36,564 nt of DNA. Source: Desulfonatronovibrio sp. (GTDB lineage Bacteria > Desulfobacterota > Desulfovibrionia > Desulfovibrionales > Desulfonatronovibrionaceae). Position 1 is the stretch's first letter; every line of letters starts with the position of its first letter. The DNA lies in assembly GCA_007121655.1 (NCBI GenBank), contig SKKD01000016.1:1-36564 (forward strand), in the 5' to 3' direction. Below are positions 21,958 to 26,010 of the stretch, in pieces. Under the pieces are notes generated by a model. That model worked only from the letters and a program-made list of their open reading frames with translations. It was not told the DNA's origin and did no database searches. Made by a program: the position numbers and the translations under genes.

Positions 21958-22108
21958 AAGACCGACATCCCCCTGGATGAAGGAGATTGAATTTATTTAA
22001 CGGATCTTGGCCCTTTATTGAGCTCGATATTGCCGATAATTATTGACAATTAAATTCTTATCTGAAACAGACAGGTATATTATTCTGTTAGCGGGTGTTT
22101 TAAAGATT

Positions 22109-22804
22109 ATGTCTAAATCCTGGGTAAAGTCAAAGTTTCCTGAATTTGTAAGAGATGTACTTCGTGATTTTTGTCTTGTAAGTCAACGCCTTTTTACTGA
22201 ATTTTCCAGGTACGATCAAACAGGTCAGGTGAGTTTCAACTTTTTCCGGGATCTTTTGGGAGAAGAGATGAACAAGGGCCAGCTCTGGAGGCTTAAGGAT
22301 ACATCGCATATTCTTTTCCGCTCGGAACTTTCTCCTGATCGTACCGGTCTTTATCTTGACTGGTGCATAGGATACATTTTTCATGAATGCATGAAGCTGA
22401 GGGAAGACTCTTATCAACAGGAAAACTATCTTCCCTGGTTTGAGATGATGCACGGCAAAGCAAATCTTCCCCCTGAGGAAACATTAATCAGTAAGGAGCT
22501 GTTTACCGTCCTGGAACAAACCTGTGAAAGCATTGAACGGGAAGTTTCCAGAATTCGTTTTATACTTTTTCACTGCAGAAGACTTTTTACCATGTTTCTT
22601 CCAACCCATCAGGATAATCCCCTGCTTGCCAGGTTTTTTTTCGCTCAGGAAGAACTGGTTAAGGAGGTATTTAAATCTTCATATGACGAGTTGATCCATA
22701 GCATTTACCAGGACAAGCCGGCCAAGCTTTATCATCTGGCAGCCCAAAGCCTGGAGCAGGGAGGGTGGCTTGAAGAAGCGGCTCTTGCCCGTCAAAGAAT
22801 TTAG
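22109..22804 (+). CDS. Hypothetical protein
   Basis: Long ORF in a plus-strand position with codon usage like neighbours; ATG 22109 (MSKSWVKSKFPEF) likely. No recognised motif. Confidence 0.7.
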   Translation: MSKSWVKSKFPEFVRDVLRDFCLVSQRLFTEFSRYDQTGQVSFNFFRDLLGEEMNKGQLWRLKDTSHILFRSELSPDRTGLYLDWCIGYIFHECMKLREDSYQQENYLPWFEMMHGKANLPPEETLISKELFTVLEQTCESIEREVSRIRFILFHCRRLFTMFLPTHQDNPLLARFFFAQEELVKEVFKSSYDELIHSIYQDKPAKLYHLAAQSLEQGGWLEEAALARQRI

Positions 22805-22883: not shown

Positions 22884-23378
22884 ATGAAACGCTACTTTGT
22901 GCTTGCGATTTTGTTGCTGGCCATGCTTGGCTTTGGTTGCGCCAAAAAACCGGCTACTCCTGAGCCTGAACCCCCAAGAGAAGAGGCCAGGATAGAGACC
23001 CCTACTCCTCCTCCTGCTCCCCAGCCTCAGCCCATAATCACTGACGAACCTACAGCAAGAGATATTTATGAACGCAATTACGCCCAGCTTCCCACAGCTC
23101 ACACAGTGGTCAAAGGAGAGTGTCTATGGTGGATTGCCGAATACGAACAGGTTTATAATGATCCGTTTATGTGGCCTCTGATTTTCAGGGCAAACCGAAA
23201 TCAAATCGACAACCCGGACCTTATTTATCCAAATCAGGTCTTCCAGATTCCCAGGGCATTCAGCCTGGACAATATTCAGGAAAGCCGGAGAATGGCTGGT
23301 GCCCCCGATCCATATCTTCCTCCCCATACCGCTACTTTGCCTGCTGATATAAGGGCTGAACTCGGCTGGGGATTTTAA
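22884..23378 (+). CDS. LysM peptidoglycan-binding domain lipoprotein
   Basis: SD GGAGG; lipobox LGFGC; Pro-rich linker; HTVVKGECLWWIAEYEQVYNDPFMWPLIFRANRNQIDNPDLIYPNQVFQIP is LysM-like. Confidence 0.88.
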   Translation: MKRYFVLAILLLAMLGFGCAKKPATPEPEPPREEARIETPTPPPAPQPQPIITDEPTARDIYERNYAQLPTAHTVVKGECLWWIAEYEQVYNDPFMWPLIFRANRNQIDNPDLIYPNQVFQIPRAFSLDNIQESRRMAGAPDPYLPPHTATLPADIRAELGWGF

Positions 23379-23715: not shown

Positions 23716-25551
23716 ATGTTCGATTCTTTGTTTCATAAAAACCCTGCCAGGCAGAAATACGACTTTGATGAGGTTGAAAAACCTGAGCTTCTCAGGGAAA
23801 TATATCCGTACAATAAAATTTGCAGAGTGGCCTTTGACGATTCATTTGTCATGCCCAGGCCGCCTGAACAAATTTTTATTACCGACACTACATTCCGTGA
23901 TGGTCAACAGTCCAGGCCCCCTTTTACTGTTCAGCAGATAGCAGAAATTTTCGAGCTTATGCACAGACTGGCAGGGCACTCAGGCCTGATTCGCCAAAGC
24001 GAGTTTTTTCTTTACTCCGACAAGGATAAAAAAGCGGTTCATGCCTGTCTGGACAAAGGCCACAGGTATCCCGAGGTCACCGGATGGATCAGGGCCAACA
24101 GGAAAGACCTTAAGCTGGTTAAGGAAATGGGCCTGAAAGAAACCGGAATGCTTACTTCTGTATCTGACTATCACATTTTTTTAAAACTGGGGAAATCCAG
24201 AAAACAGGCTGGTGAAGACTATCTGAAGCTGGTTGAAGCCGCCCTTGACTGGGGCATTATTCCCAGATGCCATTTTGAGGACATCACCCGTGCGGACATC
24301 TACGGATTCTGTGTTCCCCTGGCCCAAAAGATGATGGAGCTTTCCAGACAAAGGGGCTTGCCGGTCAAAATCAGGCTATGCGACACCATGGGATACGGAG
24401 TGCCCTATCCCGGAGCATCTCTGCCCAGAAGTGTTTCCAAAATTGTGCGCACCTTCACCGACGAAGCCCAGGTACCCAGCGAATGGCTTGAATGGCACGG
24501 GCATAATGATTTTCACAAGGGATTTATAAATGCCACGACAGCCTGGATTTACGGATGTTCCGGTGTCAATGCCACCTTGTTCGGATTTGGAGAGCGTACC
24601 GGAAACGCTCCCCTGGAGGCATTGGTTATTGAGTATATTTCCCTGACCGGGGATGATGACGCGGCCTACACCCCGATTATAACCGAACTGGCCAGATATT
24701 TTAAAAAAAACCTGAACGTGGAAATTCCTGCCAATTACCCCTTTGCCGGCAGAGACTTTAACGCGACCAGCGCGGGAATTCATGCTGACGGCCTGCTCAA
24801 AAATGAGGAAATATACAATATCTTCAACACAAGACATATTCTGAACAGGGACGTTCCCATCATCATCACCGACAAAACCGGACGGGCCGGGGTGGCCTAC
24901 TGGATCAATCATAACCTCAGCCTGCCTGAAGATCAAAGAGTTGATAAGCGTCATCCTGCCGTAAAAAAGGTATACGAAAAGATCATGGGTTCCTATGCCA
25001 GAGGCAGGACTACCAACTACTCCCATGAAGAAATGCAAAAACTTGTGCGCAGGTATATTCCCGACCTGTTCCTGTCCTCCTTTGACCAGCTTAAAAACCT
25101 TGCTCACAAGGTGCTCAAAACCATAATGATCGAGCTGGCTTCCAATCCGTCCATGGCAACCATGGACAAGGATAGTATCGACCTTGTAATTAATGATTTT
25201 CTAAACGAATATCCTTTTATCCAGTATATGTACGTTACAGACATTAACGGGTGCCTGCTCACCTGGAGTGTTAGTGACATTGGAGATATATCCAAATATC
25301 GCCAGGTCCCGGAGAATGCCGATCTCTCAGATAGAGAATGGTTTATCCGTCCGGTAAAAACCGGCAAACTGCATATCACTGATTTTTATAAATCTTTTTT
25401 TACAGGCAAACTCTGTTTGACTGCTTCAACTCCAATATTTACCAGTGACGATGAAATTGTGGGAATACTTGGTGCTGACATCCGCTTTGATGAACTGGTC
25501 AAGATCCAGGAAGGACTGGCTGATGATCAGGAAATGCTTCAGGATTTTTAG
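23716..25551 (+). CDS. HMGL-like (2-isopropylmalate/homocitrate synthase family) protein with C-terminal Cache/PDC-like sensor domain
   Basis: FITDTTFRDGQQSRPPFT, RLCDTMGYGVPYPG, EWHGHNDFHKGFINATTAWIYGCSGVNATLFGFGERTGNAPLE; C-terminal ~140 aa with DREWFIRPVKTGKLHITDFYKSFFTGKLCLTASTPIFTSDDEIVGILGADIRFDELVKIQE. SD GAGGAG upstream. Confidence 0.88.
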   Translation: MFDSLFHKNPARQKYDFDEVEKPELLREIYPYNKICRVAFDDSFVMPRPPEQIFITDTTFRDGQQSRPPFTVQQIAEIFELMHRLAGHSGLIRQSEFFLYSDKDKKAVHACLDKGHRYPEVTGWIRANRKDLKLVKEMGLKETGMLTSVSDYHIFLKLGKSRKQAGEDYLKLVEAALDWGIIPRCHFEDITRADIYGFCVPLAQKMMELSRQRGLPVKIRLCDTMGYGVPYPGASLPRSVSKIVRTFTDEAQVPSEWLEWHGHNDFHKGFINATTAWIYGCSGVNATLFGFGERTGNAPLEALVIEYISLTGDDDAAYTPIITELARYFKKNLNVEIPANYPFAGRDFNATSAGIHADGLLKNEEIYNIFNTRHILNRDVPIIITDKTGRAGVAYWINHNLSLPEDQRVDKRHPAVKKVYEKIMGSYARGRTTNYSHEEMQKLVRRYIPDLFLSSFDQLKNLAHKVLKTIMIELASNPSMATMDKDSIDLVINDFLNEYPFIQYMYVTDINGCLLTWSVSDIGDISKYRQVPENADLSDREWFIRPVKTGKLHITDFYKSFFTGKLCLTASTPIFTSDDEIVGILGADIRFDELVKIQEGLADDQEMLQDF

Positions 25552-25560
25552 GAGGACATT

Positions 25561-26010
25561 ATGCTGAAAAAATTTGCTTTGTTGACTTTGGTCCTGTTTC
25601 TCTCCGGTTGCGCCCATATTACCGGAGATCCGGAAAAAGAAACTGTGTATGAACCCGTTGCTGCCCCGCCCGAAAGTGAATCAATCACTCATAAGTATTA
25701 TGATTTCGAGGATATACCCATTCCCAGAGAGATGAAAATTAATGCCAGGGATTCAATTCTCTTTGAATCACAAAACATGAGATCCGGCATGCTGTCTTTT
25801 TCCGGCAGAGTGGATAGCGATTCCCTCTTCAATTACTTCCAGGTAAGCATGGCCGATGAAGGTTGGAAGCTCATCAGTTACATTAAATACGGCACCTATA
25901 TCCAGACCTTTGAAAAACCGGACAGACTGTGCATAATCCGCATTATTGAAAGATCGTTCAGTTCTGAACTGCAAATTTGGATTTCCCCCAAATTATCCCC
26001 AGGCAGGTAA
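25561..26010 (+). CDS. Hypothetical lipoprotein
   Basis: Signal peptide with lipobox LFLSGC; SD GGAGG; starts 10 nt after the HMGL-Cache gene. Confidence 0.82.
   Translation: MLKKFALLTLVLFLSGCAHITGDPEKETVYEPVAAPPESESITHKYYDFEDIPIPREMKINARDSILFESQNMRSGMLSFSGRVDSDSLFNYFQVSMADEGWKLISYIKYGTYIQTFEKPDRLCIIRIIERSFSSELQIWISPKLSPGR

Follow-up and report, generated by a model that had tools for sequence, protein, structure and literature searches.

The locus raises the question of what a condensing enzyme of the HMGL family does when it carries, at its C-terminus, a domain of the kind otherwise found as a sensor in receptors and kinases. The gene, here termed a putative Re-citrate synthase-Cache fusion, is located on the plus strand at 23716..25551 of the window, by which we mean the whole 36,564-nucleotide stretch analysed (contig SKKD01000016.1 of Desulfonatronovibrio sp.). 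All features of the window described below lie on the same strand. The open reading frame is complete in the window, with an ATG at 23716 and a stop codon at 25549-25551, and encodes a protein of 611 residues (70.0 kDa).

Domain organization of the fusion protein

The catalytic part starts with an HMGL-like TIM-barrel domain at residues 53-305 (23872..24630; Pfam, E = 5.1e-29), followed by a post-barrel helical subdomain at residues 320-450 (24673..25065) as found in homocitrate and isopropylmalate synthases, which was delineated from a weak HCS_D2 match and the AlphaFold2 model. In the same model, a long helix at residues 455-475 (25078..25140) links the enzyme to the sensor, a Cache (PDC) domain at residues 469-597 (25120..25506) recognised both by Pfam and by fold prediction. 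The dCache_1 profile matched these residues with E = 1.9e-13 and 50.9 bits, compared to a cut-off of 45, and the MCP-like_PDC_1 profile matched residues 523-594 with E = 1.6e-11. Since both Cache models were matched in 62 of 62 aligned homologs, the match is no chance event. The initial annotation, made from the letters of the DNA, had proposed an HMGL condensing enzyme with a C-terminal Cache/PDC-like domain, and the profile matches and the predicted PDC fold bear this out. Its sensor region, placed at about 25110-25550, stands as a Cache on the plus strand, with the bounds now narrowed to those given above and the helix set apart ahead of it.

The whole protein was modelled by AlphaFold2 with a pLDDT of 88.4 (input of 62 homologs), while the C-terminal domain folded alone reached a pLDDT of 90.7 and a pTM of 0.85. 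The best solved structures for the full model were homocitrate synthases, headed by 6ktq. For the C-terminal domain alone, the nearest solved fold was the KinD sensor, followed by WalK, Tlp3, DctB, PctC and CitA, with PctA also among the matches; modelling, which had been put forward earlier as a check, returned a Cache/PDC fold closest to the sensor domains of receptors and kinases. Similarly, phmmer searches against the PDB matched the first 400 residues to citramalate, homocitrate and isopropylmalate synthases, and the last 150 residues to the sensor domains of KinD, Tlp3 and PctA.

No membrane segment or signal peptide was detected in the whole protein, where the highest 19-residue hydropathy was 0.85, in line with the cytosolic location assumed from the outset. 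The Cache is here without its usual setting, which is extracytoplasmic with flanking membrane helices. The usual LeuA regulatory domain, already noted as missing in the initial annotation, was likewise not found, as the Pfam search gave no LeuA_dimer match in the 611-residue protein.

Identity of the condensing enzyme

No NCBIfam model scores the fusion protein above its cut-off, for which reason automatic names drift to homocitrate or isopropylmalate synthase. We are highly confident that the enzyme half is instead a Re-citrate synthase (EC 2.3.3.3), an identity to which four independent lines point, namely genome content, replacement of Si-citrate synthase, operons and a characterised ortholog. 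Re-citrate synthase is an uncommon type of the enzyme that serves glutamate synthesis in many anaerobic bacteria. For this particular protein, citrate formation is very probably the reaction catalysed, as judged from sequence and genome evidence.

The host genome encodes its own LeuA (adjoining pssA/psd) and its own CimA (adjoining aspartokinase on another contig), both full length and over the NCBIfam cut-offs, as well as aconitase (NF005558) and NADP-isocitrate dehydrogenase (NF005425), also over their cut-offs. No Si-citrate synthase was detected in this genome, an absence that alone is weak because the genome is 89.6% complete. Across larger sets, the fusion and Si-citrate synthase substitute for each other. 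Among 150 genomes of the order, 81 contained only the fusion, 61 only the Si-type, four both and four neither (fusion in 85, PF00285 in 65), and among 197 genomes around locus L028 the corresponding numbers were 79, 92, 19 and 7; the Fisher p-values for these sets, 6e-32 and 6e-28, respectively, ignore shared ancestry, and the Si-type was counted by PF00285, which takes in 2-methylcitrate synthase as well. Counted by genus, the fusion occurred in 23 and PF00285 in 15 of the 36 genera of the order, with sets that barely overlap, and PF00285 was missing in 22 of 30 fusion-bearing genomes picked across phyla. For Omnitrophota, either Si- or Re-type citrate synthase, but never both, has been described (PMC8542988).

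The gene surroundings in other lineages point to the same pathway. In Syntrophorhabdia, genes for a split aconitase-family enzyme and NADP-isocitrate dehydrogenase (IDH) come after the fusion, which in Elusimicrobia is followed by malate dehydrogenase, aconitase, IDH, fumarase alpha and fumarase beta, in that order. Genes for aconitase-family enzymes or IDH are also located near the fusion in Desulfovibrio, Nitrospirota, Omnitrophota and Erginobacter loci. For the aconitase-family neighbour in some of the Desulfovibrio loci, the best-fitting model is the hydratase PRK11413.

The initial annotation had assigned the catalytic part to the isopropylmalate/homocitrate-type synthases, and the best NCBIfam matches, to the NifV and LEU1 models, as well as homocitrate synthase 6ktq as the best structural match, would agree with an isopropylmalate, citramalate or homocitrate synthase under control of the Cache. 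We nevertheless consider such an enzyme very improbable. The scores lie far under the cut-offs (130.8 vs 462.9 bits for NifV, 89 vs 598.7 for LeuA and 59.8 vs 450 for CimA), the host has LeuA and CimA of its own while the fusion protein is devoid of LeuA_dimer, and the fusion gene stands in for Si-citrate synthase and neighbours aconitase and IDH genes. The earlier assignment is countered by genome content, by the mutual exclusion with Si-citrate synthase, by the TCA operons and by the 55%-identical, Cache-bearing ortholog described below. Isopropylmalate, homocitrate and citramalate roles were rejected on the sub-cut-off scores, the separate LeuA and CimA, and the operon context. A more specific candidate, a citramalate (isoleucine) enzyme with an isoleucine-binding Cache, was dropped with the finding of CimA beside aspartokinase.

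At the residue level, the HMGL-superfamily membership expected of a Re-citrate synthase is reflected in a catalytic domain with the metal and catalytic motifs present. The catalytic Arg61 and the metal-binding Asp62 sit in DTTFRDGQQ, the metal ligands H261 and H263 in HGHND, and GFGERTGN is found too. The alignment of 62 homologs shows no or almost no variation at R61/D62, H261/H263, GxGERxGN and PRCHFED. Within PRCHFEDI (residues 183-190, 24262..24285), R184, H186, E188 and D189 are invariant in all 62 homologs, and H186 aligns with Tyr144 of Leptospira citramalate synthase, which we take to be the residue contacting the methyl group of pyruvate. The presence of a polar histidine at this position suggests a pocket that would fit a dicarboxylate substrate.

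A probable ortholog from Syntrophus aciditrophicus

A genome in the order of locus L044, evidently that of S. aciditrophicus SB, encodes an ortholog that is 55% identical over 603 residues, aligns end to end, has a length of 629-634 residues and includes the full Cache. The same genome has three HMGL matches, of which the other two are 29% identical with frames of 574 and 563 residues, and it gave no match to PF00285, so that it is without a detected Si-citrate synthase. The Re-citrate synthase of S. aciditrophicus was reportedly purified by Kim et al. in 2013, with its substrates, metal and stereochemistry described, and it is said to be a tetramer with a tagged subunit of 72.9 kDa (about 73-kDa). 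The mass computed for 629 residues plus a Strep-tag is 72.8-73.0 kDa, a subunit size that of the three genes only the Cache-bearing one can give.

The S. aciditrophicus Re-citrate synthase, which is a known and isolated enzyme (PMC12016533), is a probable ortholog of the window protein, and the HMGL plus Cache layout is common to both. Prior characterisation of the fusion, with its substrate known, had been named in the initial annotation as an outcome that would speak against its proposal; this is largely the situation for the enzyme half, but not for the sensor half. What is known is the kind of enzyme, a Re-citrate synthase, while the sensor domain on Re-citrate synthase has, as far as we found, so far gone unrecognised.

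Re-citrate synthases of the Clostridioides/Heliomicrobium/Dehalococcoides type, represented by HM1_2993, resemble the fusion in reaction and superfamily but belong to a separate lineage, HM1_2993 sharing just about 28% identity with the enzymes of S. aciditrophicus and C. kluyveri (PMC12016533). The plasmid search yielded Cache-less relatives from Deinococcus only. These are 36-39% identical (L084, L085) and lie divergent beside a Si-type citrate/2-methylcitrate synthase, the one at L084 being annotated as two ORFs.

Distribution and modularity

A genome scan by species returned several hundred relatives, the best 80 of which have the catalytic part in common. The 62 aligned homologs, all of which match both dCache_1 and MCP-like_PDC_1, come from about ten phyla, and the fusion is on this account an old and stable architecture and no local accident. 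Names in the tree include Thermodesulfobacteriota, Nitrospirota, Spirochaetota, Lentisphaerota, Elusimicrobiota, Fibrobacterota, Auribacterota and Margulisiibacteriota. One genome of the same genus as the window (G061) holds two full-length copies of the fusion, on contigs C79 and C94. A strongly diverged copy is present in a Desulfovibrionales genome with Si-citrate synthase (G093, L113:1850-3826), which reads FREGQQ instead of FRDGQQ and has a C-terminus not recognisable as a Cache.

Three orthologs lacking the Cache were encountered among the relatives. Behind the one at L111 (455 residues) come malate dehydrogenase and fumarase, behind the one at L112 (460 residues) comes IDH, and the one at L083 (Firestonebacteria) adjoins IDH, malate dehydrogenase and fumarase genes; no Cache motif was found in the bases behind these three genes. 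In the tree, the L112 and L083 proteins form a nested pair (100/99) and that of L111 is located elsewhere within the fusion clade, with bootstrap values that are not fully settled. The simplest reading of the tree would be at least two losses of the Cache with the TCA operon kept. Since the Cache-less orthologs seem to do the same job, the Cache appears to be dispensable for catalysis, which would fit a regulatory add-on.

Gene neighbourhood

Just upstream of the fusion gene, at 22103-22801 (+), lies an unannotated protein of about 233 residues with no Pfam match. It recurs upstream in a dozen Desulfovibrionales loci (L005, L006, L022, L052, L086-L088, L090-L092, L113) at 37-68% identity, also adjoining the diverged paralog in G093, and is possibly a functional partner of the fusion. 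The fusion gene is further flanked by two genes for lipoprotein-like proteins, one at 22884-23375 (+) that matches LysM weakly and a small one at 25561-26007 (+). In related loci, relatives of both occupy the corresponding positions, with coaBC coming next.

An ORF resembling aspartyl-tRNA synthetase (aspS) lies close to, or immediately upstream of, the Re-citrate synthase gene in 38 loci of several lineages, including L015-L020, L027-L036, L041, L043, L049 and L060, and is itself often preceded at some distance by a hisS-like gene. The aspS arrangement seems to be present also at the S. aciditrophicus-like locus L114.

The Cache pocket and its candidate ligands

Six pocket positions, R540, W542, F543, Y558, S560 and D588, were assigned by alignment with PctA. 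The first three lie in a REWF stretch (25333..25344), the next two in Y558-K-S560 (25387..25395) at the positions of PctA Y144 and D146, and D588 (25477..25479) at that of PctA D173. Of these, W542, S560 and D588 are invariant in the 62 homologs. Identity averages 95% over the pocket columns and 53% over the remainder of the domain; of its 129 columns, 23 are conserved at 80% or more, and these include all six (p = 2e-5). R540 aligns with the arginine replaced in the KinD R131A structures and with R126 of PctA, which binds the ligand carboxylate, and the position of PctA D173 is the amine contact of amino-acid receptors (dCache_1AA). In KinD, a pyruvate-bound structure, the equivalent of D588 is an alanine. 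The published amino-acid motif minus its first aromatic residue was found in 71 of 76 homologs and the whole motif in 11 of 76; the window protein is without this first aromatic.

Taken at face value, these residues would form a putative pocket that suits a small acid of the alpha-amino or alpha-keto type. The Cache is, in our judgement, likely to bind a ligand and to act allosterically. An amino acid such as glutamate is put forward more tentatively as this ligand, the glutamate family being the first candidate because the pathway feeds glutamate.

The Cache might instead bind a carboxylate (pyruvate, citrate or 2-oxoglutarate) and not an amino acid, an alternative that we regard as possible if somewhat doubtful. 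KinD, which was solved with pyruvate, is closest both in fold and in sequence among solved structures and shares a Y-x-S-x-x-T-G stretch with the fusion Cache, DctB (succinate) and CitA are among the Cache matches, and the first aromatic of the amino-acid motif is mostly missing in the homologs. However, D588, at the amine-contacting position of dCache_1AA, is invariant in the fusions although it is replaced by alanine in KinD. It is rather unlikely, in our estimate, that the Cache of a Re-citrate synthase merely serves as an oligomerisation or structural module without a ligand. PDC domains commonly dimerise, and with Cache-less orthologs occurring in TCA operons the effect of the domain could be structural, but conservation favours the pocket positions over the domain as a whole, including the arginine that corresponds to KinD R131 and PctA R126.

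Comparison with known sensors and proposed regulation

Regulatory domains at the C-terminus of HMGL condensing enzymes are known from LeuA and CimA (LeuA_dimer) and from Sulfolobus homocitrate synthase (RAM, according to the title of 6ktq). LeuA_dimer senses leucine or isoleucine, and C-terminal domains of the LeuA/CimA/RAM type sense the end-product amino acid. The fusion differs from these in that its C-terminal fold is a Cache, which is unrelated to both LeuA_dimer and RAM. The dCache_1 receptors PctA and Tlp3 and the KinD sensor are alike to it in fold and in the pocket Arg/Trp/Tyr, and the Asp is as in PctA. These proteins are, however, extracytoplasmic and membrane-anchored and govern chemotaxis or kinases, whereas the fusion Cache is soluble, consists of a single module and sits on a metabolic enzyme. 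The nearest soluble Cache-like precedent is YkuI_C of B. subtilis, located behind an enzymatic (EAL) domain, for which a weak Pfam match was obtained in 18 of 62 homologs together with a PDB match to 2bas. Unlike in the fusion, the partner enzyme in YkuI is a c-di-GMP phosphodiesterase-family domain.

Allosteric control by the Cache, as suggested in the initial annotation, is plausible. In the proposed scheme, the enzyme would condense acetyl-CoA and oxaloacetate to citrate as the first step of an oxidative half-TCA path to 2-oxoglutarate and glutamate, in an anaerobe that would be without an ordinary Si-citrate synthase. The cytosolic Cache would act as an allosteric module at the place taken by LeuA_dimer in LeuA and CimA. 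Its ligand would most probably be a small alpha-amino or alpha-keto acid formed downstream; the glutamate family ranks first here and 2-oxoglutarate or pyruvate second, and occupancy would be passed to the catalytic core via the helix at residues 455-475, resulting in end-product control, a direction of regulation that we infer.

No report on the control of a Re-type citrate synthase was found, nor any on a Cache joined to citrate synthase or on a cytosolic Cache-enzyme fusion in the open-licence literature, which is no proof of novelty. We give even odds to the complete proposal, that in anaerobes from about ten phyla an intracellular Cache switches citrate synthase allosterically by sensing glutamate or a related amino or keto acid. 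If true, this would be a third type of C-terminal metabolite sensor on LeuA-type condensing enzymes, beside LeuA_dimer and RAM, and would place in the cytosol a superfamily that is elsewhere known from receptors at the cell surface. Carbon enters the TCA cycle through citrate synthase, and a sensor with a conserved pocket would provide sulfate reducers, syntrophs and many uncultured phyla with a direct metabolite switch on the flow of carbon to glutamate.
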